Source: a virus
Virus record (IMG/VR): IMGVR_UViG_3300031963_000004
Location: 159,152 to 223,151 of that record
Reading direction: 5' to 3' (one strand)
DNA length: 64,000 nucleotides
Shown here piece after piece: positions 37,789 to 60,952 of the stretch. Made by a program: the position numbers and the translations under genes. The notes below the pieces were generated by a model, which was not told where the DNA came from, ran no database searches, and was given only the letters and a program-made list of their open reading frames with translations. Position 1 is the stretch's first letter, and each line of letters starts with the position of its first letter.

Positions 37789-38751
37789 ATGCCAACAAGA
37801 TATCCAGGACGACTATTATCTGCCACTAGACCAACAATTACTAGCAGTTCGTCAGGTGCAGGGATGTTTACTGGAACTGAAGTCACACAAGCCGTAGGTG
37901 AGAGAAAATGGCCGGGTTCAGCAGTTCCTGCGGATTATTTAATTGTTGCAGGCGGTGGAGGTGGAGGATATAATCGCGGTGGAGGTGGTGGCGCCGGAGG
38001 GTTAGTCGCAAGTTCCGCTGATATGATATTTGGCATTACATACACAATAACTGTAGGTGGAGGTGGTACAGGCGCGTCATCAGTTACACCAGTTGGGGGA
38101 ACCGGTCAAAATTCTTCTATTACAAGTTCTCACATTAATGTAACTGCTATAGGCGGTGGCGGTGGCGGCGGTCAGGTTGACGGGGTGCAAGCTACTGGTG
38201 GCGGATCAGGTGGCGGAGGAGCAGGTAATAAAGCCAATATAGGTGGCTCCGGAAGATTTGGACAAGGAAATAATGGCGGAATAGCATTACCTTCCGGCTC
38301 TACTCCAGGTGGAGCTGGAGGCGGCGGTGCTGGTAGTGTTGGTCAAAATGCTGTATCACAAACAGTTGCTGGTAATGGCGGTTCAGGGTCTGAATGGCCC
38401 ATAGGTTCAGGGATATATTATGCAGGTGGCGGTGGCGGTGGTGAGACAGGTGCAAATTTAACGCCGGAGACCCCAGGAAGTGGTGGTCTTGGCGGTGGCG
38501 GCGCCGGAGGTTCCGGATCAACGGGTTCAATGACATTTGGTGTATCAGGTACACCTAATACAGGCGGAGGCGGCGGCGGCCATGCAGCGTCTTCAGCTAC
38601 TACCGGAGGTGCAGGAGGCTCTGGTATTGTTATAATTAGATATCCATTATCATTACCGGTTGCAGCATCAACTACAGGTAGCCCAACCATTACAACTTCG
38701 GCTGGTTATAGAATTTACACCTTCACAGGTAGCGGATCAATTATATTTTAA
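37789..38751 (+). CDS. Glycine-rich adhesin with polyglycine-II-like domain
   Basis: A 320-aa protein. The N-terminal ~50 residues (PTRYPGRLLSATRPTITSSS) form a presumed anchor shared with 59735. Residues ~55-285 are extremely Gly-rich, with repeated GGGGGG, GGSGGGG and GGAGGGGAG runs separated by short loops. The end is STTGSPTITTSAGYRIYTFTGSGSIIF. Such runs resemble the polyglycine-II bundles of T-even gp38-type and S16-like tail-fibre adhesins, where the loops bind the receptor. Loop residues here (SSADMIF, NLTPET, SEWPIGS) would be candidates. The similarity is to composition and motif, not a proven homology. Confidence 0.6.
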   Translation: MPTRYPGRLLSATRPTITSSSSGAGMFTGTEVTQAVGERKWPGSAVPADYLIVAGGGGGGYNRGGGGGAGGLVASSADMIFGITYTITVGGGGTGASSVTPVGGTGQNSSITSSHINVTAIGGGGGGGQVDGVQATGGGSGGGGAGNKANIGGSGRFGQGNNGGIALPSGSTPGGAGGGGAGSVGQNAVSQTVAGNGGSGSEWPIGSGIYYAGGGGGGETGANLTPETPGSGGLGGGGAGGSGSTGSMTFGVSGTPNTGGGGGGHAASSATTGGAGGSGIVIIRYPLSLPVAASTTGSPTITTSAGYRIYTFTGSGSIIF

Positions 38752-38756
38752 AAATT

Positions 38757-38939
38757 ATGACTACTAAAGTATCTACAACAATGATTAATCAAACCGGTAA
38801 CGTATCGTTTACCGGTAGTAATGTTTCGTTTGGCGCAATTGGTAACCTACACGTGTCAGGTGGAAGCAATGGTCAATTTATAACCACTGTAGGAAATACG
38901 TATAGTTTAGGTAATGCAACTCAGAGTAGCATAACTTAA
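38757..38939 (+). CDS. Very short fibre-module protein
   Basis: A 60-aa protein, MTTKVSTTMINQTGNVSFTG..., made of one shaft-like module. It matches NVSFTGANVSLGNxxNLKIxGG present in several large fibres. It lies 5 nt after the Gly-rich gene. Its small size suggests either a real accessory peptide or the remains of a shortened fibre gene. Confidence 0.45.
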   Translation: MTTKVSTTMINQTGNVSFTGSNVSFGAIGNLHVSGGSNGQFITTVGNTYSLGNATQSSIT

Positions 38940-38962
38940 CTCAAAATACAAAGGAGAAAATA

Positions 38963-39337
38963 ATGGCACATTTTGCTAAATTAGATGAAAACAATGTAGT
39001 ACTAGAGGTTCATGTTGTAAACAACAATGAATTATTAGATGAGAACGGACAAGAGACTGAGCAAAAAGGTATTGACTTTTTAATCAGCTGGAGTCAAGGA
39101 TCACATACAAACTGGAAACAAACTAGTTATAACGGCAATTTTAGAAAAAATTATGCTGGTATAGGTTATAGCTATGATTCAGTACGTGATGCTTTTATAC
39201 CACCTAAACCATATAACAGTTGGATATTAAATGAAACTACTTGTAATTGGGAAAGCCCAGTACCTTATCCACAAGATGACAAGATGTATACATGGGATGA
39301 AGCTACTACTAGTTGGGTAGAGGTTGCGGGAGCTTAA
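38963..39337 (+). CDS. Conserved small virion-associated protein (MAHFAKLDENN family)
   Basis: A 124-aa protein beginning MAHFAKLDENNVVLEVHVVN, with TSYNGNFRKNYAGIGYSYD and AFIPPKPYNSW. Proteins of this appearance recur in phages from aquatic environments as uncharacterised structural or fibre-associated proteins. It has an RBS AGGAG at 38952. Unlike its neighbours it is not Asn/Thr repeat-rich but Trp/Tyr-rich. The function is unknown. Confidence 0.72.
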   Translation: MAHFAKLDENNVVLEVHVVNNNELLDENGQETEQKGIDFLISWSQGSHTNWKQTSYNGNFRKNYAGIGYSYDSVRDAFIPPKPYNSWILNETTCNWESPVPYPQDDKMYTWDEATTSWVEVAGA

Positions 39338-39366
39338 ATAGCACGATGTAACTCATTCCCAAAAAT

Positions 39367-39374
39367 GATAAATA
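39367..39374 (+). promoter_or_regulatory. Putative late promoter box GATAAATA
   Basis: GATAAATA in the 61-nt gap before the 1127-aa fibre gene, 25 nt before its ATG. It matches the recurrent late box. Confidence 0.6.
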
Positions 39375-39398
39375 TGAGATAAAGACAGGACCTTTTAA

Positions 39399-42300
39399 AT
39401 GCCCGCAATTACATTATTACAACCCTTTAACCTAGACGCTACTAAAGATTATACTTTTGGTAATGTTACCGCCAATGTAAAAACTGATAATTTGATGTAT
39501 GCTAATGGCACGCCCTATGTGTTGGGTGGTTCAGTAGCCGGTAGTAATACACAAGTACAATTTAATGACGCAAATGCTTTTGGAAGTAGCGCAAATTTTA
39601 CATTTGACAAATCTACCAACTCACTGAGTGTCACTAACATCATAGCTAATGGTGCAGGACTAACAAACATAGCAGGTGCTAATGTCACAGGATTTGTTCC
39701 AAATGCTAATGTAGCAAATACTGCATTTAGTGTAAGTGGTGGTAATGTAAGTGGACAGGTAGCAAATGCATTAGTCGCTGGTACTGTTTATACAAATGCA
39801 CAACCTAATATTACTAGTGTAGGAACTCTTACAAGTTTAACAGTGACTGGTGCATTAGCATCAGGTGATGCTACTGTCACAGGTAATTTAACTGTAAGTG
39901 GAACTACTATTACAGCAAATGTATCCTCTATTATTGTTAAAGATCCTATAATAGAACAGGGCGGAGAAGTATCAGGCGCACTAACAACAAATGACGGCAA
40001 AGATAGAGGTCAATTACTACATTATTATTCAGGCGGTGTTATTGATGCATTTATGGGTTGGGACAACTCCAATGCTGAATTTGCATTTGGCAGTAATGTC
40101 AGTGTAAGTTCAGAAGTTGTAACTTTCAACACATTAGGTAATTTAAGAGCAGGTGTTTACTTTGGTAATGGTAGTGGATTAACAAGCATAGCAGGAGCAA
40201 ACGTAACTGGATTTGTTCCAAACGCTAATGTAGCAAATACAGCTTATAGTGTCAGTGGTGCTAATGTATCAGGTGATGTAAGTGGCGCTAATCATGCAAA
40301 CGTAGCTGACTCAGCAAACAGTGTAGCCGGCGCAAACGTTACTGGTTTTGTAGCAAATGCAAATGTTGCGAATACAGCTTATAGCGTAAGTGGCGCTAAT
40401 GTATCAGGTGATGTTGCAGGTGCTAACCATGCTAATGTTGCAGATGTAGCAAACAGTGTAAGTGGTAGTAATGTAACTGGTCAAGTAGGTAACGCACTTG
40501 TGGCAGGTACAGTATACACTAACTCTCAACCAAATATTACCAGCATAGGTACATTAACTAGTTTAGATGTAAGTGGTAACGTTAGTTTTACCGGTGCAAA
40601 TGTAAGCTTAGGTAATGTAAGTAATTTAAAAATTGCCGGCGGTACTGCAAATTATGTGTTAAAAACAGATGGCGCAGGCAATTTAAGTTGGACATCAATT
40701 ACTAGTGGTACTGGTAATGCCAATGTTTCCGGTAGTAACACACAAATTCAATATAATGATGGTACAAATTTAGGTGCAAGTGCTAATTTAACATTTGATG
40801 TAACAACTAAAACATTAACCGTTGATAATCTAGTTGCAAATGGTGTAGGACTAACTTTTATCACTGGTGCAAATGTTAATGGATTTGTACCTAATGCTAA
40901 CGTTGCGAACACTGCATACAGCGTAAGTGGTGCAAATGTTTCAGGTGATGTTGCAGGTGCAAATCATGCAAACGTCGCAGATGTAGCAAACACTGTTGCT
41001 GGTGCAAACGTAACAGGTACAGTTGCAAACGCAACTTATGCAGTAACATCAGGTACATCATACAGTGTAAGTGGAAGCAATGTTTCTGGTGCTGTAGCTT
41101 ATGCGACTACTGCAAACAGTGTTGCTGGCGCTAATGTCAGTGGGCAAGTAGGCAACAGTTTAGTAGCAGGCACAGTATACACAAATGCACAGCCCAATAT
41201 TACTAGTGTTGGTACGCTAACAAGTTTAGATATTACAGGTAATGTGTCAGCAGGTAATGCTAATTTAGGTAATTTAGTTACTGCTAATTTCTTTACAGGT
41301 AATGGTAGTTTATTAACAAGCATTACAGGTGCTAACGTAACTGGTACAGTTGCAAACGCAAATTATTCAGTTTTTGCTGGAACTGCATATTTCGTATCAG
41401 GTTCTAATGTATCAGGTGAAGTTGCATTTGCAGCGACATCAAATAGTGTAGCCGGTGCTAATGTTTCAGGACAAGTAGGTAATGCATTAGTAGCTGGTAC
41501 CGTATACACAAATGCACAACCTAATATTACTAGCGTTGGCACATTAACAAGTTTAAGCGTTACAGGAAATTTAGTTGCAGGTAATATACAAAGCAATGCA
41601 ACGTTGACAGCAGTAGATGCGGTTATATCAGGTAACTTAACTGTATCAGGTACAACTACAACTGTTAATTCAACTACTACGCAAATTGTTGATCCATTGT
41701 TTGAGTTAGGTAGCGGAGCCAACGGTGCAGTACTAACAAGTAATGATGGAAAAGATAGAGGTACGCTATTACACTATTATACAGGATCAACAGCAACAGA
41801 TGCTTTTATTGGTTGGGACAACTCAAATGCAGAATTTGCTTTTGGTAGTAATGTAAGTGTTAGTAATGAAGTTGTAACCTTTAATACATTAGGTAATTTA
41901 CGTGCTGGCTTCTTCTTAGGAAACGGTAGCCAGTTAACTGGATTACCTGCTGGGTACACTAATACAGACGTAGCTAATTATTTACCTAATTATACAGGAA
42001 ATTTATCTGCCGGCAACGCTAATTTAGGTAATTTAGTTACAGCTAATTTCTTTAGCGGAAGCGGTAATTTACTATCAAATATTCAAGGATATAATGTTAG
42101 TGGGCAAGTAGGTAATGCTGCTGTAGCAAGCACTGTTTATACAAATGCGCAGCCAAATATAACCAGTGTTGGTACGTTGACAAGTCTAAATGTTACAGGT
42201 AATATAACATCAGGAAATGCTAATTTAGGAAACGCTGTCGCAGCTAATTTCTTTGTTGGTGATGGTAGTTTATTAACTGGTATAGCTAATGCGAGTTCAT

Positions 42301-42782
42301 CAGGGACGGCTAATACGGTTACTAATAATGCACAACCTAATATTACTAGCGTTGGTACATTAACAAGTTTAAATGTTAGTGGTAACGTAAGTTTCACTGG
42401 TGCTAATGTTAGTTTAGGCAGCGTTAGTAATTTGCATATTACTGGGGGAAGTTCAAGCCAGTTTTTACAAACAGACGGCTCTGGAAATTTAGTTTGGGCT
42501 AATCCAGTTGCATCTTTAGATATAACACAGGACTCATTTACAGGAAATGGGGTTCAAACTACATTTACTCTAAGTGTTACACCAAGTGATGAGAAACAAA
42601 TAACCGTTAATTACAACGGAGCAACAATGCTACGCAGCTCTTATACATTAAGTGGGGCTAATTTAGTATTTGATAGTCCACCTGCTAATAATTCATTACT
42701 AGAAGTAACGACCATCAATACATCTACTGAATTAGCAAGTGCAGGAAGACTAAGAGCAATGAGTTTTTTATTAGGATTTTAA
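39399..42782 (+). CDS. Large tail-fibre protein, LLQPFNLD-start type
   Basis: A 1127-aa protein. The N-terminus ITLLQPFNLDATKDYTFGN is nearly the same as that of 48725 (LLQPFNLDVTKEYVLG). It has six QPNITSVGTLTSL units and two VKDPIIEQGG/VDPLFELGSG modules with DRGQLLHYYSGG and DAFMGWDNS. Many ANVSGDVxGANHANVAD repeats follow. Near the end there is a VQTTFTLSVTPSDEKQITVNYNGATM module, then the ending AMSFLLGF. Its first module (SNTQVQFNDANAFGSSANF) recurs in 48725 and 56417. The next gene is a MANPNIV protein. Confidence 0.72.
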   Translation: MPAITLLQPFNLDATKDYTFGNVTANVKTDNLMYANGTPYVLGGSVAGSNTQVQFNDANAFGSSANFTFDKSTNSLSVTNIIANGAGLTNIAGANVTGFVPNANVANTAFSVSGGNVSGQVANALVAGTVYTNAQPNITSVGTLTSLTVTGALASGDATVTGNLTVSGTTITANVSSIIVKDPIIEQGGEVSGALTTNDGKDRGQLLHYYSGGVIDAFMGWDNSNAEFAFGSNVSVSSEVVTFNTLGNLRAGVYFGNGSGLTSIAGANVTGFVPNANVANTAYSVSGANVSGDVSGANHANVADSANSVAGANVTGFVANANVANTAYSVSGANVSGDVAGANHANVADVANSVSGSNVTGQVGNALVAGTVYTNSQPNITSIGTLTSLDVSGNVSFTGANVSLGNVSNLKIAGGTANYVLKTDGAGNLSWTSITSGTGNANVSGSNTQIQYNDGTNLGASANLTFDVTTKTLTVDNLVANGVGLTFITGANVNGFVPNANVANTAYSVSGANVSGDVAGANHANVADVANTVAGANVTGTVANATYAVTSGTSYSVSGSNVSGAVAYATTANSVAGANVSGQVGNSLVAGTVYTNAQPNITSVGTLTSLDITGNVSAGNANLGNLVTANFFTGNGSLLTSITGANVTGTVANANYSVFAGTAYFVSGSNVSGEVAFAATSNSVAGANVSGQVGNALVAGTVYTNAQPNITSVGTLTSLSVTGNLVAGNIQSNATLTAVDAVISGNLTVSGTTTTVNSTTTQIVDPLFELGSGANGAVLTSNDGKDRGTLLHYYTGSTATDAFIGWDNSNAEFAFGSNVSVSNEVVTFNTLGNLRAGFFLGNGSQLTGLPAGYTNTDVANYLPNYTGNLSAGNANLGNLVTANFFSGSGNLLSNIQGYNVSGQVGNAAVASTVYTNAQPNITSVGTLTSLNVTGNITSGNANLGNAVAANFFVGDGSLLTGIANASSSGTANTVTNNAQPNITSVGTLTSLNVSGNVSFTGANVSLGSVSNLHITGGSSSQFLQTDGSGNLVWANPVASLDITQDSFTGNGVQTTFTLSVTPSDEKQITVNYNGATMLRSSYTLSGANLVFDSPPANNSLLEVTTINTSTELASAGRLRAMSFLLGF

Positions 42783-42791
42783 GGAAAAATT

Positions 42792-43151
42792 ATGGCAAAT
42801 CCAAACATAGTAAGTATGTCATCAATGTATGGCAATTCCGCAGTTCAAAATGTTACTACAAGCGCAACTGCCGTAGTAACAAACAGTACTGCTAGTGGCA
42901 AAGTATATAGAGTTAATATGTTAGTAATCGCAAATATTGATTCAACTAATAGTGCGACTATAACAGTAGATTTATATAGAGCTAATTCTGCAACAAAATT
43001 AAGTAACGAAGTTATAATAGGTATTAATACAGCATTTACTCCAATAGACAAATCGTTAAGTTTATACTTATTAGAGGGAGATAGTTTAAGATTGACATCT
43101 AACGCTAATAGTAGATTACAGGCAGTTTGTAGTTGGGAGGAGATAGGATAA
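42792..43151 (+). CDS. Small beta virion protein, MANPNIV family copy 2
   Basis: A 119-aa protein beginning MANPNIVSMSSMYG and ending LYLLEGDSLRLTSNANSRLQAVCSWEEIG, clearly the same family as 37415. Here an RVNMLVIANIDSTNSATITVDL strand replaces the equivalent segment. It precedes the 1849-aa LamG protein by 1 nt, implying stoichiometric or coupled expression. Confidence 0.66.
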   Translation: MANPNIVSMSSMYGNSAVQNVTTSATAVVTNSTASGKVYRVNMLVIANIDSTNSATITVDLYRANSATKLSNEVIIGINTAFTPIDKSLSLYLLEGDSLRLTSNANSRLQAVCSWEEIG

Positions 43152-43152
43152 A

Positions 43153-46100
43153 ATGTTTAATAGTGGATTACTTGGGGATAGAGCCCCTGACGGATTTGGA
43201 ATAGTATCTAATGAATCTCAATTCATTCAAGCAAGTGATCCGCAACCTTCTATCTCAGGTTGGACAATTTCGGGCACTGACGATATAGCTCTTGACCCAC
43301 TTGGTGGTCAAACAGTTATAGTTAACGGGGGAGGATTTGTGGCAGGCTTAACAGTCACCGTCGACGGTACGATAGTGAGTCCTGTTACCCTATTAGGACC
43401 AACTCAAATATCATTTACAAGTATTCCTAGAGCAGGTGGATTGTATACATTGGCTGTATACAACACCAATGGAACAACAGCAATTCTTGTTCCTGGATTG
43501 TATTATTCAAGTATCCCAACATTTTCAACAGCTTCAGGTAACATAGGCACAAATTACGAAACACAGGCAATTAGTACTTCTGTAGTTGCTTCAAGTGATA
43601 CTGCTGTAACTTATAGTTTAGTGAGTGGCAGTCTACCTGCAGGGGCTACTCTCTATGCCAATGGTGTAATTTCGGGTACAAGTCCTACAGTTGGTAGTAG
43701 CACAACATATTCTTTTACAATAAAAGCAGAAGATGCAGAAAAGCAAGACGTGGTTCGTTCATTTACTTTAACTGTTAATCCTGATATTGTTAGCTGGAGT
43801 GCTCCGTCAGCGGATTCAGTCATTTCCACGTATGAATCCGTAGCCATAGCTAATACCACATTAACTGCAACAAACTTAGTTTCAGGAAACATTACTTATA
43901 CCGGAGCTAATCTACCTTCCGGTATCAGCATAACAGGTAATACTTTATCTGGTACTACAACAACTGTTGGAAATTCTGCCATAACATTAACTGCTACGTC
44001 AGCTAGCTCGACAAAAACTGCTAATAGGACAGCATATATTAATGTTCAACAAGATAGTGTTACATGGAGTAGTCCAGCTAATGCGTCTGTAATTACTACA
44101 TATGAATATGCACCAATCGCAAATACATCACTGTCAGCTACAAGTGCAGCTGGGTTCGGAGTTGAATATTCACAGAGTGGTGCACCTACTGGAGTTTCTA
44201 TTTCAGGTAATACATTAGCAGGTACATCAACTGTAGTTGGTAACGCTAACGTTACATTAACAGCAACCGCTAACACTACAAACAGAACTCAAACAAGAAC
44301 GGTATACGTTAATGTACAACAAGATGCAGTTACATTTAGTAATCCTGCAAATGCAACAACTGATTATACTTTAATACAAAACGAAGCTATGGATAATATT
44401 ACTTTAGCGGCAACTAGTGCTGCAGGATTTAATGTAAGTTATTCTGCGAATACTTTACCTACAGGAATATCATTAACTGGTAATACAATATCTGGTACAC
44501 CTACGGTAGTTGCAAATAGCTCATCATTAGTGACAGGAACATCGGCTACCTCAAATAGGACAACAACTAGAACTTTTAATTGGACAATAATATTACCATT
44601 GGACCAATTTTTTAGTACTAACGCTGCTTTAATAGCAACACCTTCAGATTCATTAACTTGGATTTCCGATGCAAGTACGAATAAGTTTGAATTGTCTATC
44701 GCAGGTGACGTTAGACCTTCAGCCAAAACCCCCTATAGTGATAACACAGTGTTATACCTACCCGGCGGTTCATCCTACATAACATTACCGGCTAATACCC
44801 CAAATCTACAATTTGGGACAGGGGACTGGACTATTGAATTTTGGGCAATGCCTGAAACCGATCCTAGTGGAGATGGCATAGAAGCTAATACATGGCTACT
44901 ATCTATAGGTAGTCAACTTAGAATAGGTTTGGGAGGTAATGCATATTGGTTACTTGGTATGGGCAGCGGCGGCGGCATTAATCCAGTTGTGTCAACTCTC
45001 GGGGGAGCCCAAATTGGTCTTTATAAAAACCAATGGACCCATTTAGCACTAACCAGAAAAGGGAACAATTTTACTTTTTGGGTTAATGGGATATATGGAT
45101 GGAATTATAATAATGCTGCGGTAGGCACAAATTTTACTGGTACTATAGCAATCGCTGATAATAGTTTAGGTAATGGACAAGGCACTAGATTTAATGGTTG
45201 GATTGCAGGACTTAGAATTTTAAAAGGAACTGCGTTATTTGATCCTAGTATTGCATGGCCGGCTAGATATGCAATTAGTTCAATGGCTAGTCCCTTTGCA
45301 AACATTACGAATACTGTGTTTAATTTAAGAGTCAGGGCGGACGGCACCTTAAGCGATATATCTGGTAATAATTACTCAGTAACTAAATTAGGGACTCCTA
45401 GAGCCACTAGTAATTTTGGACCATGGCTTGATACTAATGTAATTTCAGGTAGCGGTTATTTTGATGGTACTGGGGATTATTTGACCGCACCAGCAAACGC
45501 TGCTTTTGATTTTGGTACCGGAGACTTTACAATAGAGCTGTATTTTTATAGAAGCGGTATTAAAGGTAATTCATTTCATGATAATATAATCGGAAACAGG
45601 CCTACTAGTTTATCATCTGGACAATGGCATTTATTTGTTGGTCCGACTGCAGGTGGAGCATTCTCCCTTACAGCGAGAACACCGGCCGGAGATATAACAC
45701 TGAGCGGAGGAGTATGCATAGAAAATGCATGGAATCATTTGGCCGTAGTAAGAAACGGAACTTCGCTCTCACTATTTGTAAATGGAATAAATGTAAATTC
45801 AACAACAACATCTACTTCAATTGGAGATTCAGTAAGTAATCTAAGTATTGCTGCATTTAATGATGGTGCATTTCCAACAATTGGGTATGTATCTAACGTG
45901 CGTATCGTTAAAGGTACAGCAGTCTACACTGCAAACTTTACTGTACCAACATCACCCCTAACAGCAATTGCAAATACAAGTCTATTAACATTACAAAATA
46001 GAACTGATGAAGGTACAAGACGTTTTATTGAGTGTTCATCTAATAACTGGCCGCTTACAAGAACAGGTGGTGTATCACAAGGATCGTTCAGCCCATATGG

Positions 46101-48702: not shown

Positions 48703-48724
48703 TAAAAATTAAGTAAAGTAATTA

Positions 48725-51571: not shown

Positions 51572-51587
51572 GAATAGGAAAAAATCC

Positions 51588-51595
51588 GATAAATA
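51588..51595 (+). promoter_or_regulatory. Putative late promoter box GATAAATA
   Basis: GATAAATA between the 948-aa fibre and the 70-aa protein, 19 nt before the ATG at 51614. Same octamer as at 18218 and 39367. Confidence 0.55.
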
Positions 51596-51613
51596 TAGAA
51601 ATAGGACAAACTT

Positions 51614-51826
51614 ATGGCTAATAGAATACCTTTAATAGTTAACCCATCTGCATCTCAGATACAAGAACTTCCTGCAGGTGACACACTAGATTTAAGCAAT
51701 TGTACAATAGCTTCAGACGCTATTACAGTTTCAGGAAATTTAACAGTATCTGGTAATATAATTGGTAATGCTATTGATAGACATGTTGTTAGATCAACAA
51801 TAATATCCTCAATAATTGATATATAA
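51614..51826 (+). CDS. Small MANRIPLIV virion protein
   Basis: A 70-aa protein, MANRIPLIVNPSASQIQELP, then a short shaft segment (TVSGNLTVSGNIIGN) and a hydrophobic tail. The MANRIPLIV...QIQELP start is frequently seen in structural proteins of aquatic T4-like phages. Here it is only the head of such a protein: a minimal version without a long shaft. It might be truncated or a genuine small connector. Confidence 0.6.
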   Translation: MANRIPLIVNPSASQIQELPAGDTLDLSNCTIASDAITVSGNLTVSGNIIGNAIDRHVVRSTIISSIIDI

Positions 51827-51837
51827 AAGGAACACAG

Positions 51838-52194
51838 ATGGCAAATCCAAATCTTGCATCAGTAACGAACATAAAAGCAGACTCATTGTTTGTAAACTTA
51901 ACTACCTCTGACACTCAAATTTTAGAGAACGCAGCAGCCAGCAATCAACTAGTTAAAGTCTCTGCATTAATAGTAGCTAATAAAGCTACTTCTCCTGCTT
52001 CAGTCACATTACAAGTAAGACGCAGTGCAGCAGATTTCCCTATAGCATGGCAAATCTTAATACCTGCAAACTCTACTGTAGTCATTGTTGGAAAAGATGC
52101 ACCAATATACTTAGGAGAAGGTGATGCACTACGAGGTTTAGCAAGCGCAAACTCAGCATTAGTACTAACAGTAAGTTTCGAAACTCTATCATAA
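51838..52194 (+). CDS. Small beta virion protein, MANPNIV family copy 3
   Basis: A 118-aa protein beginning MANPNLASVTNIKADSLFVN and ending DAPIYLGEGDALRGLASANSALVLTVSFETLS. It shares the length, N-terminus and YLGEGD-type C-terminal motif with the copies at 37415, 42792 and 59364. It has an RBS AAGGA at 51827 and is directly followed by the 1305-aa LamG protein. Confidence 0.66.
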   Translation: MANPNLASVTNIKADSLFVNLTTSDTQILENAAASNQLVKVSALIVANKATSPASVTLQVRRSAADFPIAWQILIPANSTVVIVGKDAPIYLGEGDALRGLASANSALVLTVSFETLS

Positions 52195-52195
52195 T

Positions 52196-55100
52196 ATGAG
52201 AAATAATAGATACAAAGGTGGTTTTCCTGTTGACAAACTTGATGGCAGATCAGGTGTTTTTACAGCAGATGATATAGATGCATTAAAAAGAAAATCATTA
52301 AGTACTTGGCCTGCGCCGAATCAAAATGATACTAGCCAAACTGTTTGGCCTTCAGGTCCAGATAGAGATCCATATTATTCGCAAGTAGTTTGGCATTTAA
52401 CTGATGCTATTGAGGAACAACCTGCGGGCGCAATGCATGACCACAGCGGTAAAAATCACGAAGCACATTATATAAAGCCTAGAAATGATTGGCCATATGG
52501 CAGTCCCTTTCATGCAGGACCTAAACACTTTCATAGCACATACTTTAATGACCAATGCTATCGTGTCACAGATACAGCTAGTTTAAGATTAGGTACAACT
52601 GCATTTACAATTGAATTTTGGGCATGCCTACATAGAAATGATGCGACTGAACATTACATCATAGGTAAGGGTGGGCAGGCAGGAAGAACATCCGGTACCG
52701 GTTGGGTAGTATATTTAACTAGCACATATATTTTAGGATATTACGATGCTGTAGGTAATGTGAGTATACAAGGTGCTAGTGCATTAAACAGAGATCAGTG
52801 GTATCACATTGCAATTGTTCGTACAAGCACAAGTTCAAACGATACAAGAATATATGTAGATGGTGCACTTTACGCCACAGGAACATCTTCAGGTAATTTT
52901 ACAGATACAAATACATTATACATAGGCAGAGACAGAGTAGATACCGCTAGTTCTGCATATTATGGAAAATTAACTGACATTAGAATTAGCAGTGGAGCTG
53001 TTTATACAGCAGCATTTACAAGACCTTCAACTCCATTGACAATGGCAAGTCCTGCACTGTTGACGATTGGTGCTATAGAACCATGGCATCCTAATAGTCC
53101 ATTATGGCAAAGAGAAGGTTTAACCATATCACTGAATAGTTCGCAGGTAATGCGATTAAACGATACACCATTCATGAATAAAGCCACTAATCCATATTTA
53201 GGTAGAGGTTTTCATTCTGTGTCTATGTTAGATGGCACATGGTTTAGACTGAAAGATTATACAGCAGGTGGATTAAATCATCTTAATTTTGGCACCGGTC
53301 CTTTTACGGTTGAAGCTTGGGTAAGAATGGGTGATGCTAGAGGTTATTTCCCACTATGCGGCAAAGGTACAGGCAATGCAGGTGCAGCAGGCTCAACGGG
53401 CTGGTCAGCATACATAGATGGTAACTTTAGACCTGTATGGAGTGACGGTGCAACACAGCATACTGGTAATACAACTACCCATGCTATATACCACAGTGGT
53501 TGGTATCATATCGCATATGTGAGAGAGAGTACAGCAACTAACGGATTTAAAATTTATGTCAATGGTTATCTAGCATATACAGGTACATGCTCAACTAACT
53601 ACAATGATAGCAATGATGTAAACATGTTTGCAACACGAAATGTTGAATTGGCAGCGGCTGCGAGTTCAATGTGTTGTTTAAAAATTAGCAAGACTGCAAG
53701 ATATACTTCTGCTTTTGGTATTAATCCTCAAAGTAATGGGGTATCAACATTTATTGATAATGTTTGCACAACAACAAATGATGCTAACACATCATTTTTA
53801 TCCTTCGGCGCAGGAAATCTAACTAGAGAAATTCCAATGGATGGTGGTTGGATAAATGATGGATATGGACAATATAGTTTTAGAGAGGTTTTAGGTCATC
53901 AATACTTTGGTGAAAAACACATAACATCAAGAACAAGCACAAGTACGACAGGTAATTACGGTGGTCACTCATCATATTTTTATAACGGTTCTCAACAGGT
54001 AATTAAGGCAAGAACAACAACAGGTGATTTTAGTTTTGGAACTGGTGATTTTAGTATAGAATTTTTTGTTACTTCAAATTGGCGTAACTCAGAAGGTAAT
54101 TCATTCATCATAACTTTCTTTGATACACGGAATTGGTTCAACGATGCAGGAATCGTACTTCAATCAGGTGATGGTTTGCGTGGATTTGAAGTTATAACAA
54201 ACAATACAATGGTTTTAACTACTCATCGTGGTCTTTGGGGAGACACAAGAAAATGGACACACGTTGTTGTTCAAAGAACTAATGGTAGTATAGCATTATA
54301 TGTAAATGGTAAAAAAGAAGCAGAAAGTCGTTTTACTAGTTCAATTGACGCACCACAAAATAGAATACACATCGGTAATGGTTCTTATATAAATTTACGC
54401 TATGCTAATGGGTTTTGGGGTCATATCAGTAATTTCAGAATCGTTAAAGGTGTTTCTGCGTACGGGGCGTATAGCGGCGGTGTAGGAGTTAACCCATCAT
54501 CAATTTTTGTTCCTACTAAGCCAATGGATATTACTGCAAATACTGTATTCTATAGTTTATGTAATGCAACTTTAAGAGATGAAACAGGTAGAAATGATGT
54601 TGTTGCAGGTGGCTGGAATAATTTAAATGAAAATTTAACAAGTGCATGGGACGTTTATAGTGGATCAACGTATAATCCCTTTGATCCAGAAACTGATTTT
54701 CCAACTTTTTATGATACTCAATTTATGGGGTCAAATCAATATCCTAATTGGAACAATGGTATGCACGCCCATTTACCAGAAACCTCAAACAACAACTCAT
54801 TCGCACCAACGTTAGGTTGGATACCAAGAATGAGTCGTGCTTGGACTATTGAACAATATTTTTATGTGCATGAAGTTAATCCAGGTAGTCCAAGCTCCCA
54901 TGGACAACATCAGTGTGCGGATTCTAATGGTCATTCAGGTTGGAATTTCAGTTACCATTTAAATAATGCTGCAACACCTGCTGCATCTAGAAACGATGTT
55001 AGTTTCCGTATGTTTTTAGGCACAACGAATTATCAGCAGCTTGCTACAAGTGGAAATACAGGAAATCTTCAGCCACATTCTTGGAATCATATGGCAGTTC

Positions 55101-56113
55101 AATTTGACCCAACAAGAACAAACAGAATGGCTTTATTTATAAATGGTAGAAGAGTCGCACAACAAACAACAGCTTTTAGTCAGTCTACCCGTGCAGATAT
55201 AACTTATCATATACGACAGTATAACGGTGGCGGTCCTATGAGAATTAGTGATGTTGCTAGATATAACAACGACTCAACAACTATTACTGTACCAAAGGGC
55301 AAATGGGTATACGATCAAAACACATATATCCTCTCATATGCCACAGCCCCTATGTTAGATTCATCAAATAGAGCATATTATTATTACTATGGCGTATTAC
55401 CAGATGCGCAACACAAAAAGTTTGGTAAAGCAAGTATTAAATTCCCTAACGATGCTACCAATACAACACACGTTTGTAGGATTGGCTCAGACGAACCTTG
55501 GTGGGGTACAAGACATAAGGATGTTCGCAGAGAAGATTTGACATTTGAATGTTGGGCTTCTTGGCATGATTTAGCATCAGGTGGTTCAAACTTTATGACT
55601 GCTACTGAAGGAGCATGTTTGTTCCATTATAATAATGCCCTTTGGGTGGGAATAAACCCAGCTGGGTATTGGCAGATTTTAGTTAGAGGCAGCAACACAA
55701 CTTACTCAACTTTTACATCAGGTGTTCAAGTCGCCTTAAGGAGTTCAGGAAATATGGATTTCGTTGCTGTATGCAGATCAGGAAAGAATTGGATACTTTG
55801 GATTAACGGAGTTCAACAAGTAATTTGTATGGCAAACAACCAGGGAACATATTCGTCGAATGGTCCACCAACTACAGCTAATGGAACATTGTCACTTAAC
55901 CATGATTGGGATATGTACACTTGGAGTAACTTGATGTTAGGAGCTGATTATTACGCCAATCAATCTTCAAAATGGTGCGGAAATATGCAAGATTTTAGAT
56001 TTACGCAAAACATTTCAAGATATTCTACAAGAGTATTAAATGGGATAGCGACCATGTGTCATAATGGTACAGATATACCAGCATTACCAACTAAACCATT
56101 TCCAACAAGATGA
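52196..56113 (+). CDS. Large adhesin with short anchor and about five LamG-like domains
   Basis: A 1305-aa protein. The N-terminal ~45 residues (NRYKGGFPVDKLDGRSGVF) follow the pattern of the anchor segment in 59735 and 37789 (RYxGxxxxxxRxxxxxSGxF...W). LamG-like domains begin near residues 113, 338, 591, 878 and 1076. They have LGTTAFTIEFWACL, WYHIAIVRTSTSS, FGTGDFSIEFFV and WTHVVVQRTNGSIALYVNG. It is more Trp-rich than other fibres. Probably a surface-glycan-binding outer part mounted on the preceding fibre complex; this is inferred. The stop overlaps the next start (ATGA, 56110-56113). Confidence 0.7.
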   Translation: MRNNRYKGGFPVDKLDGRSGVFTADDIDALKRKSLSTWPAPNQNDTSQTVWPSGPDRDPYYSQVVWHLTDAIEEQPAGAMHDHSGKNHEAHYIKPRNDWPYGSPFHAGPKHFHSTYFNDQCYRVTDTASLRLGTTAFTIEFWACLHRNDATEHYIIGKGGQAGRTSGTGWVVYLTSTYILGYYDAVGNVSIQGASALNRDQWYHIAIVRTSTSSNDTRIYVDGALYATGTSSGNFTDTNTLYIGRDRVDTASSAYYGKLTDIRISSGAVYTAAFTRPSTPLTMASPALLTIGAIEPWHPNSPLWQREGLTISLNSSQVMRLNDTPFMNKATNPYLGRGFHSVSMLDGTWFRLKDYTAGGLNHLNFGTGPFTVEAWVRMGDARGYFPLCGKGTGNAGAAGSTGWSAYIDGNFRPVWSDGATQHTGNTTTHAIYHSGWYHIAYVRESTATNGFKIYVNGYLAYTGTCSTNYNDSNDVNMFATRNVELAAAASSMCCLKISKTARYTSAFGINPQSNGVSTFIDNVCTTTNDANTSFLSFGAGNLTREIPMDGGWINDGYGQYSFREVLGHQYFGEKHITSRTSTSTTGNYGGHSSYFYNGSQQVIKARTTTGDFSFGTGDFSIEFFVTSNWRNSEGNSFIITFFDTRNWFNDAGIVLQSGDGLRGFEVITNNTMVLTTHRGLWGDTRKWTHVVVQRTNGSIALYVNGKKEAESRFTSSIDAPQNRIHIGNGSYINLRYANGFWGHISNFRIVKGVSAYGAYSGGVGVNPSSIFVPTKPMDITANTVFYSLCNATLRDETGRNDVVAGGWNNLNENLTSAWDVYSGSTYNPFDPETDFPTFYDTQFMGSNQYPNWNNGMHAHLPETSNNNSFAPTLGWIPRMSRAWTIEQYFYVHEVNPGSPSSHGQHQCADSNGHSGWNFSYHLNNAATPAASRNDVSFRMFLGTTNYQQLATSGNTGNLQPHSWNHMAVQFDPTRTNRMALFINGRRVAQQTTAFSQSTRADITYHIRQYNGGGPMRISDVARYNNDSTTITVPKGKWVYDQNTYILSYATAPMLDSSNRAYYYYYGVLPDAQHKKFGKASIKFPNDATNTTHVCRIGSDEPWWGTRHKDVRREDLTFECWASWHDLASGGSNFMTATEGACLFHYNNALWVGINPAGYWQILVRGSNTTYSTFTSGVQVALRSSGNMDFVAVCRSGKNWILWINGVQQVICMANNQGTYSSNGPPTTANGTLSLNHDWDMYTWSNLMLGADYYANQSSKWCGNMQDFRFTQNISRYSTRVLNGIATMCHNGTDIPALPTKPFPTR

Positions 56114-56337
56114 TTACTTTAGCAAATATTATTCCTAGAGAACCTAATGACGGTGACACTGTAAACATAGAGGATGTCATCTTTACTTATAATAAGTCAG
56201 AAAATCATTGGACCCATGACGACTACCAAGAAGAAAATAGATTCGACTATAATCCATATATGCTATATGGAACAATGACGGTTCTGATTAAAAAGACACT
56301 TATAGACGAAAAATCTTGGTGGATGAAAATAGTCTAG
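56110..56337 (+). CDS. Short uncharacterised protein coupled to the LamG adhesin
   Basis: A 75-aa protein starting MITLANIIPREPNDGDTVNI, with YNKSENHWTHDDYQEE and a Trp/Lys-rich end. The ATGA overlap with the preceding gene suggests translational coupling. No family is recognised. It is not repeat-rich, and may be an assembly factor or small adaptor for the LamG protein. Confidence 0.55.
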   Translation: MITLANIIPREPNDGDTVNIEDVIFTYNKSENHWTHDDYQEENRFDYNPYMLYGTMTVLIKKTLIDEKSWWMKIV

Positions 56338-56372
56338 AAAGCTGACCCAGTCCTGATCTTAGTAATTTTAAG

Positions 56373-56379
56373 CTAAATA
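56373..56379 (+). promoter_or_regulatory. Putative late promoter box CTAAATA
   Basis: CTAAATA in the 79-nt gap before the 981-aa fibre, 38 nt before the ATG at 56417. It is the same variant as at 6921, 6945 (minus) and 14225. Confidence 0.6.
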
Positions 56380-56416
56380 CATTATAGGTGCAAAAATTCA
56401 TTTTTGAGACATTATA

Positions 56417-59362
56417 ATGGCTACATTAGGACGCATAAAACCCCGAAATTTTGATACAACTGGTGACTACGTTGCGAATAGTTTGACAACGGCCGGCAAT
56501 GTAAGTGCTGGAAACATTAGAACCAACAATATTTTAACCGCCAATGGCACTCCGTACAATATTGTACAGGGGGCAGCAGGATCAAATACTCAACTTCAAT
56601 TCAACGATGCAAATAGTTTTGCTGGATCAGCAAATCTTACATTTGATAAAACTACTAATACTTTATCTGTCACTAATATCACAACAACTGGTACAGCAAA
56701 CTTAGGTAGTGTATCAAATGTCAAAATTACCGGAGGCAGTAACGCTCAGCTAATAAGTACAGACGGTAATGGTAACTTAAGTTTTGTAAATCAAGTAAGT
56801 CTAACAGGTTACGCTACAGAAACTTATGTTGGTAATGCAATAGCGAATCTAGTAAATTCTGCACCAGCTGTACTAGATACATTAGGTGAAATAAGCAATG
56901 CGTTAGGTAACGATGCAAGTTTCTCTACTTCAATAACAAACAGTTTAGCAAATAAGTTAAACACAAATGCGTTTAGCAATACAGCAAATGATTGGGCCGC
57001 AAATTATTTACCAAACTATTCAGGTAACCTGTCAGCAAATGCATTCACTACAACAGGCAATGTAACAGCTAATTTCTTTATCGGTAATGGTAGTCAACTG
57101 ACTGGATTACCTGCTAGTTATTCTGACACTAATGTTGCTGCTTACTTACCAAATTATACAGGTAATGTTTCTGCTAATTTCTTTATTGGTAATGGTAGTC
57201 AACTTACTGGTATTACCGCAACCTCAGCACAAACTGTCACAACAAACGCACAACCAAATATTACAAGTGTTGGTACATTAACAAGTTTAAGTGTTACGGG
57301 TAATGTAAGCTTCACTGGAGCTAATGTAAGTTTAGGCAATGTAAGTAATTTAAAAATAACTGGTGGTTCTGCCAACCAAGTTTTAAAAACTGACGGATCA
57401 GGTAATTTAAGTTGGGCTGCACAAGAAACCCCGGTAGCTTCAGTATCACTTGATAGCTTTACTGGAGATGGATCTCAAACAGCTTTCACACTTACTACAA
57501 CACCTGCCGGTGAAAATCAATTAGTAGTTAACGTTGACGGTGTATTACAACTTAAAACAGCTTATAGCTTAACAGGCAATGTAATAACATTTACAAGTGC
57601 ACCTGATAACGGAGTACCAATTGAAGTACAAGCTTTTGCCTTTAGTGGCGCAGCAGCATCAATTAATTTATGGTCATATACTGGTAACGGAGTACAAACA
57701 GTTTTCAATGTTTCATCTACCGCTACTGCAAATAGTTTAATTGTAACTGAAAACGGCATTTTACAGATGCCAATTACAGACTACACAGTTTCAAATAGCG
57801 CAGTAAATTTTGCTGGTGCCCCTGCAAATAACATATCAATACAAATTCGTGAGTTACCCTCATTACTCTCAGCCACCTCAGTTAGCGCACAAACAGTTAC
57901 AACAAATGCACAACCTAATATTACTAGTGTAGGTAATTTAACAAGTTTAACAATGGCGGGTAACATTATACCTGCAACAACAAACACATATAGTTTAGGT
58001 AACACTACAAATAGATTTAAAGATTTATATTTAGAAGGTAATACAATATATTTAGGTAATACAGCATTATCATCAGAGGATGTATTACCATTTAATCTTA
58101 CAATTCAACCTGAAGTTCTTACTATCAATACAGATGGATCTGGCCCAGGTAACGACATTATGTGGTTATGGACATGGACTCAAAGTTCACTGCCATATGC
58201 AAGAACTAGTATTACTAATCAACAACAAATACAAGTACCTCTCTATAAGCAGGGAACATATCAAGTTAATAACTTTGCAAATGAAATACACGGTAACTTA
58301 GATCAAAGACACGGGTTATACCTAAAGTGGGTAGATGGCGCCGGACTAGATAATTTAGTCAGTTGGGCAAACAATGTAGGTAACGTTACACACAGTCATC
58401 CTAACATTAATGGCGGTGCTAACACCACTGTACAAAGATTAAACATCTCAGTGCCATCTACTGTAACACCTCCAACTCTAACTATACCAACAGGTGTCAG
58501 TTATAATGTTGCTGCAAATGGAAGTGGTGCTTATAGTATTAGTGGAAGTGGCGTAGGTGAAAACAGAAATATAGGTCCATTATACCGTGGTGCTACCTAT
58601 ACCTTTAACTTAGATAGTTCACTTGCTAGTCATCCTTTCTATATAACAACAGATAACGGCACTGGATTCGTTTCGGGTCAGTACGTAGGTGAGTATACAA
58701 CAGGAGTTACTGGCTCTAGAGGAAACGGGCAGTCAGGTTATGAAACATTAACTTTCACTGTAGCTAATAATGCTCCTGACACTTTATATTATCAGTGCGG
58801 CAATCATGCACCTATGCGCGGTGCTATAACGATTAAAAACTTAGCAGTTGAAACAAATGTCAATGGTAATTATGTTCTTTATTTCCAACACATGAAAGAG
58901 GGACATAAAACACCAGTAGAAATAAGACCAATACCAAGCATGGTGAATCAAATGTGTCTTGTATACGATGCAACAGCAGGACAATTCGTACCACAAGATA
59001 TGGCAACATATATTGAAAATACCCCAAGCTTTAAGAATAAGATTCAGGAAGTAGCTGGTACTGCTACATTAATTGCTCCTAGTGGTGTTGCTGTAGTTCC
59101 AACAGTGTTAGTTGTAGAAGATGTAAGCTACTTGCCATTAGTTGATAATAGCAATGGCGATTTAGCTTTTGATGCATATACTAATACTTTATATGTTTGG
59201 GAAACTAATGCATGGCGCAATACCAAACCAACATCTAGTTTTAGTGTAGCAGGAAACATAACTGCAACTAATTTCATAGGTAATGGTAGTCAATTAACAG
59301 GAATTTCAGCTGGCGTAAGTGAAGCCAGAGTAGTAGGTTATAATTTAGTATTCGGAGGATAA
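56417..59362 (+). CDS. Tail-fibre protein with cupredoxin-like domain, paralog of 48725
   Basis: A 981-aa protein. The N-terminus is TLGRIKPRNFDTTGDYVANS. It has a GSNTQLQFNDANSFAGSANL module, then AVLDTLGEISNALGNDASFS (~155-190) as in 35719. Two extension modules of the type QTAFTLTTTPAGENQ ... NVDGVLQ and VFNVSSTATANSLIVTENGIL follow. The long segment shared with 48725 includes the cupredoxin-like domain, with H739 and C794, H797, M800 in YQCGNHAPMRG. The end is SEARVVGYNLVFGG. It follows a CTAAATA box and precedes the fourth MANPNIV-type gene by 1 nt. Confidence 0.7.
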   Translation: MATLGRIKPRNFDTTGDYVANSLTTAGNVSAGNIRTNNILTANGTPYNIVQGAAGSNTQLQFNDANSFAGSANLTFDKTTNTLSVTNITTTGTANLGSVSNVKITGGSNAQLISTDGNGNLSFVNQVSLTGYATETYVGNAIANLVNSAPAVLDTLGEISNALGNDASFSTSITNSLANKLNTNAFSNTANDWAANYLPNYSGNLSANAFTTTGNVTANFFIGNGSQLTGLPASYSDTNVAAYLPNYTGNVSANFFIGNGSQLTGITATSAQTVTTNAQPNITSVGTLTSLSVTGNVSFTGANVSLGNVSNLKITGGSANQVLKTDGSGNLSWAAQETPVASVSLDSFTGDGSQTAFTLTTTPAGENQLVVNVDGVLQLKTAYSLTGNVITFTSAPDNGVPIEVQAFAFSGAAASINLWSYTGNGVQTVFNVSSTATANSLIVTENGILQMPITDYTVSNSAVNFAGAPANNISIQIRELPSLLSATSVSAQTVTTNAQPNITSVGNLTSLTMAGNIIPATTNTYSLGNTTNRFKDLYLEGNTIYLGNTALSSEDVLPFNLTIQPEVLTINTDGSGPGNDIMWLWTWTQSSLPYARTSITNQQQIQVPLYKQGTYQVNNFANEIHGNLDQRHGLYLKWVDGAGLDNLVSWANNVGNVTHSHPNINGGANTTVQRLNISVPSTVTPPTLTIPTGVSYNVAANGSGAYSISGSGVGENRNIGPLYRGATYTFNLDSSLASHPFYITTDNGTGFVSGQYVGEYTTGVTGSRGNGQSGYETLTFTVANNAPDTLYYQCGNHAPMRGAITIKNLAVETNVNGNYVLYFQHMKEGHKTPVEIRPIPSMVNQMCLVYDATAGQFVPQDMATYIENTPSFKNKIQEVAGTATLIAPSGVAVVPTVLVVEDVSYLPLVDNSNGDLAFDAYTNTLYVWETNAWRNTKPTSSFSVAGNITATNFIGNGSQLTGISAGVSEARVVGYNLVFGG
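57920..59230 (+). repeat. Long paralogous segment, copy 2 (pair 50010-51290)
   Basis: Matches copy 1 from TSLTMAGNIIPATTNTYSLG through the cupredoxin-like domain to VWETNAWRNTKP. Differences are mostly synonymous or conservative, and copper-ligand positions are kept in both. Confidence 0.75.
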
Positions 59363-59363
59363 A

Positions 59364-59735
59364 ATGGCTGCACCAAATTTAATAGGCGCAACGACAATAA
59401 ACGGTAAAACAACAGGTGCAAACTTAACATCAACTAGCGCCACAACAGTATTAAACAATCCAGCAAGTTCAGGTAAATGTTTAAAAGTTAATACACTAAA
59501 TGTTTCAAATTATACAGGAACAGCAGCAAATGTAACAATTAATTTTAACAATGCTGCTAACTTAACTGGTACATCATTTAGTATTGCAGGAGGTGTCAGC
59601 GTACCTGCATATTCTACATTAAATGTGATAGATAAAACAAGTCAATACTATCTAGAAGAAAATAACAGTTTGGGTGCTACAGCAGGTACTGCAAACGCAT
59701 TAATCGTTACTGTGAGCTACGAGGACATTAGCTAA
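59364..59735 (+). CDS. Small beta virion protein, MANPNIV family copy 4
   Basis: A 123-aa protein, MAAPNLIGATTINGKTTGAN, ending QYYLEENNSLGATAGTANALIVTVSYEDIS. It is the most diverged N-terminus of the four, but the same length, position and C-terminal pattern hold. Its stop overlaps the start of the next gene by one base (59735). Confidence 0.64.
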   Translation: MAAPNLIGATTINGKTTGANLTSTSATTVLNNPASSGKCLKVNTLNVSNYTGTAANVTINFNNAANLTGTSFSIAGGVSVPAYSTLNVIDKTSQYYLEENNSLGATAGTANALIVTVSYEDIS

Positions 59736-60952
59736 TGCCAAAAAGATATACTGGTGGAATAATTTCTGCAACACGACCTACTGTTACTAATAGTAGTGCT
59801 AGCGGAATGTTTTCTGCTAGTGAAGCTATTCAATATACTGCTAGTGGTACTTGGTCAGGTTTGCCTGGACCTCCAACTAATGTAAGTGCAACAAGAGGCA
59901 ACATGCAAGCCACAATTACATTTACTCCCCCTGCTTCAAATGGTGGAACTGCTATTACTTCATATATAGTAACTGCAATGCCGGGTAATATTACTGCTAC
60001 TGGCGCTAGTAGTCCTATTACCGTAACAGGATTAACAAATGGAACAAGCTATTCTTTTACTGTCAAATCAGTTAATGCAAGAGGAGCGTCAGCAGACTCA
60101 TCTTCTAGCTTATCTGTAACACCGGGTAATCCACCTACATCACTTGAGTATCTAATAATTGCGGGCGGTGGCGGAGGTGGTGCCAGCTTAGGTGGTGGTG
60201 GAGGTGGCGGAGGAGCTGGCGGCTATAGAACAGCCTCTGGTTATTCTGTCACATCAGGGGTTAATTACAGCGTGAGTGTGGGCGGCGGTGGCGCAGGTGG
60301 AGGTCCAAGTGTCTCTAACGGAAGTGACAGTAGCTTTGGTCCAATCAATTTGTTTATCACATCGACAGGCGGGGGCAGAGGAGGAAGTGCTTTAGCTACT
60401 ACAGGTAGTGGTGGTTCAGGTGGAGGGGGAGGTGGCGGTGGAACCGTTGCTTCAGGTACAGGTACAGCTGGTGAGGGAAATAACGGCGGAGCATTTAATG
60501 GATTTGTCGGAGGTGGAGGTGGTGGCGCAGGTGCTGCAGGCTCAGCTGGTACTGGTAGCAATAGAGCCCGAGGAGGAGCAGGTGGCGCCGGAGCTACTTC
60601 TTCAATAACAGGTACGGCAGTTACAAGAGCTGGTGGAGGTGGCGGAGGAACCAATACTGATGGTTCTATGGCAACTTCAGACGGTGGCTCAGGTGGCGGT
60701 GGTTTTGGTTCAGGTTTCCCAATACAAACAGGTGGTAACGGAACAACAAACACCGGTAGTGGAGGTGGCGGTGGCGCACAAAATGGAGCAGGAAGTTATG
60801 CTTCGGGTGGTTCGGGTGGTTCGGGTATTGTTATACTTAGATATCTATCAAGCTTTGATGATCCGTCATCTACTACAGGTAGCCCAACAGTTACAACTGC
60901 TAGCGGCTATAAAATATACCAATTTACCGGTAACGGATCAATAACATTTTAA
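59735..60952 (+). CDS. Adhesin with anchor, FN3 domain and glycine-rich region
   Basis: A 405-aa protein. The anchor-like N-terminus KRYTGGIISATRPTVTNSS is very close to that of 37789. A fibronectin type III-like domain spans ~46-138 (PPTNVSATRGNMQATITFTPP, TSYSFTVKSVNARGAS). A Gly-rich region follows (~142-375) with GGGGGG, GGSGG and GGAGGAG runs. The end STTGSPTVTTASGYKIYQFTGNGSITF matches the end of 37789. So the FN3 domain is an insertion relative to its paralog. Gly-rich runs suggest a polyglycine-II-like receptor-binding domain; this is inferred. Confidence 0.62.
   Translation: MPKRYTGGIISATRPTVTNSSASGMFSASEAIQYTASGTWSGLPGPPTNVSATRGNMQATITFTPPASNGGTAITSYIVTAMPGNITATGASSPITVTGLTNGTSYSFTVKSVNARGASADSSSSLSVTPGNPPTSLEYLIIAGGGGGGASLGGGGGGGGAGGYRTASGYSVTSGVNYSVSVGGGGAGGGPSVSNGSDSSFGPINLFITSTGGGRGGSALATTGSGGSGGGGGGGGTVASGTGTAGEGNNGGAFNGFVGGGGGGAGAAGSAGTGSNRARGGAGGAGATSSITGTAVTRAGGGGGGTNTDGSMATSDGGSGGGGFGSGFPIQTGGNGTTNTGSGGGGGAQNGAGSYASGGSGGSGIVILRYLSSFDDPSSTTGSPTVTTASGYKIYQFTGNGSITF

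Follow-up and report, generated by a model that had tools for sequence, protein, structure and literature searches.

A candidate three-part docking kit for exchangeable receptor-binding proteins in aquatic tailed phages

Modular tailspikes, such as the receptor-binding proteins (RBPs) of Klebsiella phages, combine a constant N-terminal attachment module with a variable C-terminal specificity module, as outlined in PMC8262889. In the T-even gp37–gp38 system (S16, T2, PP01), a glycine-rich adhesin is encoded just downstream of the fibre gene and docks to the fibre tip through its N-terminus; compatibility with T2 gp37 is restored when PP01 gp38 is given the N-terminal 113 residues of T2 gp38 in place of its own (PMC12892980). 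Pam3 gp24/gp25 and the Tfa family bring together a glycine-rich receptor-binding domain and a small partner encoded next to it, while in the head spike of the Rhodobacter capsulatus gene transfer agent (RcGTA) a small jelly-roll base protein (Rcc01079) holds an alternating-hydrophobic terminal peptide of the receptor-binding fibre (Rcc01080; PMC7296036). In Alteromonas phages A5 and V22, host-recognition genes have been exchanged between phages of different morphology (PMC10579305). Here we analyse a locus with likenesses to all of these, located in a 64,000-nucleotide stretch of viral DNA – hereafter the window – that forms the final 64 kb of a 223,151-bp record (IMG/VR IMGVR_UViG_3300031963_000004, positions 159,152 to 223,151). 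Its subject is a set of gene cassettes in which a protein of the MANPNIV family (~120 residues) is encoded between a fibre-like protein and an effector, or adhesin, that typically begins with a constant N-terminal anchor.

Our reading, which we regard as likely, is that such cassettes encode a three-part docking kit for the RBPs of tailed phages, consisting of a tagged fibre, the MANPNIV protein as connector, and an anchored, exchangeable adhesin. The three constant parts, their order, the boundaries between constant and variable stretches, and the replacements on either side are all apparent from the sequence comparisons below; we infer physical binding of both tag and anchor by MANPNIV, a location of the complex at the distal tip of the fibre, and host binding by the effectors. 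In the proposed mechanism, a fibre shaft of almost any sequence would carry at its C-terminus a constant tag, short and alternating-hydrophobic (TGKAIAMAIVFGG), which MANPNIV – a jelly-roll-like β-protein – would take up as a virion connector. One to three adhesins encoded downstream would plug into the same connector through a bipartite anchor of ~40 residues (NGGIIG plus ASGVWxL...WP) and present their exchangeable receptor-binding domain outwards, and recombination in the conserved region that spans tag end, connector and anchor would allow shaft or effector to be changed independently. The system is of a known kind, that of modular RBPs; what is new is the separate connector, the tagged shaft and an anchor that can be split. 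Many aquatic phages appear to assemble their cell-grabbing tips from this kit.

From ~33.5 kb onward, the window holds four cassettes, all on the + strand, in the order long fibre-like protein, MANPNIV protein, effector. A family profile search of the whole 223-kb record finds four MANPNIV genes, all inside the window: connector 1 (37415–37786, 123 residues, expectation value (E) 2.3e-32), connector 2 (42792–43151, 119 residues, E 2.8e-47), connector 3 (51838–52194, 118 residues, E 2.7e-38) and connector 4 (59364–59735, 123 residues, E 2.9e-38). A preliminary description of this DNA, made from the sequence alone, had placed each of three adhesins (37789–38751, 52196–56113 and 59735–60952) directly after a MANPNIV-type protein, which these matches bear out; it did not mention the gene at 42792 or the weakly anchor-like start (MFNSGLLG) of the protein encoded behind it. 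It had also described the adhesins as differing completely beyond their starts, and the open reading frames (ORFs), coordinates and domains are as it gave them: Pfam assigns Gly_rich_2 (E 3.4e-23) to 37789, five LamG_3 domains (E 9.3e-47) to 52196, and fn3 (E 1.3e-10) plus Gly_rich_2 (E 3.1e-16) to 59735.

The common start of ~45 residues that had been seen in adhesins 1 and 4 is real: the two proteins are 50% identical over their first ~42 residues (E 5.7e-9 within this virus record), and a seed hidden Markov model (HMM) of the anchor, built from 26 sequences of which none comes from the window, recovers both adhesin 4 (E 1.8e-11; anchor in the first 42 residues, 59735–59860) and adhesin 1 (E 3.2e-5; first ~43 residues, 37789–37917), with none of 5000 shuffles of either N-terminus scoring as high. 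For adhesin 3, which had been called a diverged version (first ~39 residues, 52196–52312), the outcome is borderline. Its match to the anchor HMM is not significant at database level (E about 5–14), whereas its score is rare among its own shuffles, being reached by 7 of 5000 with the seed HMM (p 0.0014) and by 59 of 10000 with an iterated HMM (p 0.006). In addition, a loose anchor pattern – composed after this protein had been seen, and hence post hoc – picks out 115 of 7782 ORFs: 113 HMM anchors, plus adhesin 3 itself and L061:6363, each of these two directly behind a MANPNIV gene. Because of the shuffle scores and the pattern result, we read adhesin 3, with moderate confidence, as probably carrying a diverged anchor; no relatives of its N-terminus bridging it to other anchors were found in viral contigs. 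The cassette 2 effector (43153–48702, He_PIG plus six LamG_3) has a weak likeness to the first anchor half only (p 0.09–0.16 with both HMMs, not significant), and a search for the second half inside this protein found none.

The four window cassettes are clearly related to one another, and glycine-rich and LamG proteins are common in aquatic phages, as would be expected if the common N-terminus reflected recent duplication in this phage together with common ancestry of such proteins, with no docking involved. This explanation, already disfavoured, is hardly credible, since the anchor recurs with unrelated effectors, with few unexplained seed-HMM matches among 5423 ORFs, accompanies the connector through changes of effector, and is kept even when split. 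An anchor profile without window sequences matches in more than 100 viral contigs, a clear recurrence outside this phage, and searching viral sequences with the anchor HMM while listing the domains attached reveals many different ones: among 106 anchor proteins, Pfam finds Gly_rich_2 in 69, fn3 in 19, LamG_3 in 11, DUF7483 in four, SPRY in three, and RCC1, F5/8C and fibrinogen-C in one each. Among named phages, DSL-LC04 has two anchor genes, and S-SKS1 and HTVC033P have the split form; bacterial assemblies contain the anchor too, in contigs resembling phage DNA.

The association with the connector is also regular. A search with the four window MANPNIV proteins gave at least 80 viral loci; among those listed, the ORF directly behind MANPNIV usually begins NGGIIGP...SASGIWsLxxxq......WP, the junction is mostly a 4-bp overlap of ATGA type, and at least 53 anchor genes lie behind MANPNIV and at least 23 behind another anchor gene. 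In an anchor-only search (80 loci, with query anchors taken from MANPNIV loci and seven of the 80 contigs already in the first set), 64 of the 68 non-redundant anchors have a MANPNIV gene immediately before them; of the remaining four, one stands behind another anchor gene, one at the edge of a contig and two elsewhere. A MANPNIV gene, in most cases with the same order around it, also occurs in nine contigs of bacterial assemblies (binned as Proteobacteria, Bacteroidota, Verrucomicrobia and Epulopiscium), which are probably phage contigs. No curated Pfam or NCBIfam model for connector or anchor was found, matches in PHROGs were weak and to families of unknown function, and the literature searched contained no instance of the tag or connector strings. 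Natural MANPNIV–anchor fusions, sought as a proxy for a complex, were absent from the ORFs searched.

Close relatives locate the boundaries between constant and variable stretches. In pairs whose connectors are 85–93% identical, the anchor is 77% identical, and identity falls to 51% over the first 40 effector residues and 40% over residues 101–200; on the other side, the last 14 fibre residues are 56% identical and the preceding 40 residues 27% (the shuffled baseline being 22% for 40-residue stretches, and the effector values inflated by glycine-rich composition). The loci L131 and L133, with a LamG and a glycine-rich effector, respectively, are 93% identical in connector residues and 93% in anchor residues; at the DNA level, connector and anchor each have an identity of 0.89, which drops to 0.68 over the final 60 bp of the fibre gene, 0.54–0.56 in the fibre body and 0.51 in the effector, against a shuffled baseline of 0.56, so that an island of ~510 bp at 89% nucleotide identity lies between unrelated flanks. 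Over all, the similarity of connectors is correlated slightly more closely with that of anchors (Spearman 0.25) than with that of effectors (0.19). Judged from these alignments, the relatives have the constant N-terminus with exchangeable remainder that characterises modular RBPs. They differ from modular tailspikes in that a separate connector and a tagged fibre are constant too, and several adhesins with different anchors can follow one connector; they differ from the A5/V22 case, in which a whole fibre and chaperone module is held in common, in that here the joint is constant and the parts on either side vary. The constant socket with variable effectors proposed in the preliminary description is thus supported by an anchor that is widespread and nearly always behind MANPNIV, and by effectors clearly replaced behind a near-constant connector and anchor; the idea is right in outline, and the system larger than stated.

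One part that had been overlooked is the constant C-terminal tag of the fibre. Although neither the length nor the sequence of the gene preceding MANPNIV is constant, its product has the extreme C-terminus (T)GKAIAMAIVFGG. Sought by regular expression, the TGKAIAMAIVFGG tag is C-terminal in 94 ORFs and internal in none, and a tag matrix trained on half of the cases recognises 40 of 74 held-out upstream ORFs as opposed to 3 of 2621 controls, these three all being fibres encoded farther up the same gene clusters. In the cultured pelagiphage HTVC033P, gp66, annotated as tail fibre, ends in SVGKAIAMAIVFG directly before gp65, which starts MATPNIV; the short fibre of phage Bellamy ends in SPGKAIALSMVFG. 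In L014:3109–4080, L148:1792–3147 and L050:1274–4444, at least one gene separates a clearly tagged fibre from the MANPNIV gene downstream, which suggests that several tagged fibres may share one connector.

Within the window, the fibre-like proteins of cassettes 1 (35719–37413, ending ..TTAKSAAINMFLGY) and 2 (39399–42782, ending ..GRLRAMSFLLGF) carry weak tags, scoring in the top 1.7% and 1.3% of control ORFs, respectively (SAAINMFLGY and RLRAMSFLLGF). The ending of the cassette 4 protein (56417–59362, ..SEARVVGYNLVFGG) is tag-like by eye, its score (VVGYNLVFGG, p 0.095) not being significant, and directly before connector 3 a short fibre-like ORF of 70 residues (51614–51826, assigned by reading of the frame) ends in ..HVVRSTIISSIIDI, in which a tag is not recognisable. 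The proteins of cassettes 1 and 4 also have PHROG tail-fibre matches.

The tag recalls RcGTA, where a pentamer of jelly-roll base proteins holds the fibre peptide IALGLGLGL, much like AIAMAIVFG (PMC7296036). The cassettes might accordingly be head-vertex spikes, with MANPNIV forming a capsid-bound base ring into which the fibre tag is plugged and to which the adhesin is also attached; pentameric proteins do occur among the weak Foldseek matches of MANPNIV, and one of 62 MANPNIV members weakly matches the NCBIfam spike_base model (NF048002, E 0.0043). We nonetheless consider head spikes distinctly improbable, as the upstream genes match tail-fibre families (with an annotated tail fibre in HTVC033P), the peptide is N-terminal in RcGTA and C-terminal here, and hhalign against three spike-base proteins was negative. 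Homology of MANPNIV to the RcGTA spike base was rejected on that result (probability 0.7%), the NCBIfam match lying below the family cut-off. Further differences are the capsid location of the RcGTA base, the lack of profile similarity to MANPNIV, and an exchangeable anchored adhesin, which is not described for RcGTA. The head spike may still serve, by analogy, as a physical precedent for a connector holding a fibre peptide.

In an AlphaFold2 model of connector 4 (predicted local distance difference test (pLDDT) 93), the protein is all-β apart from one short turn and has a flexible N-terminus, although this MAxPN stretch is the most conserved part of the family. Foldseek finds weak matches in the PDB (E about 1e-3, template modelling score at most about 0.66), and descent from a common ancestor with a solved protein was rejected, sequence and fold matches being weak. 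Predicted viral structures matching MANPNIV include many cyanophage virion structural proteins of ~110 residues; in HTVC010P, an annotated virion structural protein matches the family profile (E 2.8e-7) and is encoded after a gene that ends ALAIALG and itself follows a putative tail fibre. Diverged MANPNIV-like proteins annotated as virion structural are found in many pelagiphages and cyanophages, and extra copies (~110 residues) stand near other fibre-like genes of phages that have the cassettes (L011:1769–2104, L066:1571–1903, L079:1471–1806, and L177:4974–5318 and 8607–8939).

In the model of adhesin 1, the anchor is poorly predicted (pLDDT 45–65, one short helix) and the glycine-rich part is well modelled (81–98 in ten-residue blocks, ~95), a disordered segment beside an ordered domain being as expected of a peptide that folds on its partner. 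In the PDB, the glycine-rich part best matches the tail tip of Bxb1 and, more weakly, the related fold of the Pam3 tail fibre (7ypx). Small fibre chaperones are often encoded next to fibre genes, and MANPNIV might act in the same way as Tfa/gp57A or Pam3 gp25, assisting assembly only transiently, with anchor and tag as chaperone-recognition signals instead of a docking joint. Pam3 gp25 has a β-sandwich domain, forms a 3:3 complex with the glycine-rich fibre gp24 and is undetected in virions (PMC9608196); however, it trimerises through a C-terminal helical domain, which the MANPNIV model lacks. The MANPNIV gene is flanked by its two putative partners instead of following them, MANPNIV-like proteins bear a virion structural annotation, and the ends of both partners are strongly conserved, in keeping with a permanent joint. 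No significant match to a chaperone family was found in Pfam, PHROGs or NCBIfam. A chaperone role is, in our estimation, unlikely. Pam3 differs, moreover, in that gp24, a single-chain fibre, has a helical shaft of its own, and that a tag, an anchor and a separate adhesin gene are not described.

A functional precedent for the proposed kit is T-even gp37/gp38, like which it would work by analogy, homology not having been found. S16 has no connector gene between gp37 (ending at L174:41795) and gp38 (starting at L174:41823), and the effectors here include LamG, FN3 and other domains behind an anchor of only ~40 residues that can be split. The anchor HMMs and a search for MANPNIV gave no match beyond noise in S16 gp38 or gp37, and gp37 has no C-terminal tag. 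Homology of the anchor to the S16 gp38 N-terminus was rejected for want of any signal, and Pfam GP38 is absent from the scan of the 106 anchor proteins. As to a polyglycine domain with hypervariable loops, as in gp38, the picture is mixed: 69 of the 106 have Gly_rich_2, many carry LamG or other domains instead, and the 50 PDB matches listed for the adhesin 1 model do not include S16 gp38.

A second feature overlooked earlier is that the anchor is bipartite: its halves, NGGIIG and ASGVWxL...WP, can be separated by whole effector domains. In HTVC033P (gp64 and gp62), S-SKS1 (two genes), L171 and L172, an NGGIIG-like start is followed ~240–300 residues later by the ASGVWxL...W half, with a glycine-rich or LamG domain between the halves and, except in L172, a second effector behind them. 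That both halves are kept at such a distance is best explained by their packing together in the folded protein. Where several anchor genes are arrayed behind one connector, moreover, an anchor and its closest counterpart in a different contig hold the same rank in 31 of 44 cases (mean 18.2 and maximum 33 in 500 shuffles), and in five arrays (L037, L038, L039, L046 and L059) position 1 reads ..AYGxW..., position 2 ..SDxW... and position 3 ..NGxW or SGIW, mostly with KKxKR. These position-matched anchors are suggestive, though not proof, of distinct connector sites for up to three adhesins.

Several observations sit less easily with the docking kit. The tag is weak in the window phage itself and unrecognisable before connector 3; the cassette 2 effector follows a MANPNIV gene yet has no clear anchor; unrelated proteins stand behind some MANPNIV genes elsewhere (e.g. 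L032, L077 and L165); the weak PDB matches leave the fold class and oligomeric state of the connector uncertain; and 'virion structural' is, for MANPNIV-like proteins, an annotation.

A wider version of the docking reading is more tentative, and we hold it to be possible rather than probable: that tag, jelly-roll adaptor and bipartite anchor constitute a plug standard widespread among aquatic tailed phages of differing genome sizes and host phyla. Effectors would have two slots, one between the anchor halves and one behind them, and position-specific anchors would order up to three different adhesins at the tip; unrelated phages could trade host-recognition parts across this joint. If the docking kit is as proposed, tag, connector and anchor would provide a sequence handle for RBPs of uncultured aquatic phages, whose cultured relatives infect SAR11 and Synechococcus and whose adhesins are mostly unannotated; it would also explain the exchange of host-recognition islands among unrelated phages and yield a concrete binding prediction.

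Elsewhere in the window, the first 24 kb has a single distant DNA match among GenBank phages, to a Vibrio jumbo phage capsid gene (72% over ~600 bp). A further He_PIG/LamG protein (60965–64000), akin in layout to 43153–48702, directly follows adhesin 4 without a preceding MANPNIV gene and runs off the end of the record. The fibre-like proteins at 48725–51571 and 56417–59362 have in common a long block with SNHPFY...FYQCGHHSGMRGAI-like sequence, in which the spacing of His, Cys, His and Met is reminiscent of a cupredoxin copper site; a cupredoxin reading of this block was rejected, Pfam and the PDB giving it no support. Finally, a MAHFAKLDENNVV.. protein encoded at 38963–39337 matches phrog_7759, of unknown function, with E 7.9e-49. 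It adjoins such cassettes in L003, L166, L171, L173 and HTVC033P (gp63), and in diverged form in L172 and Melnitz, and is possibly an assembly partner.

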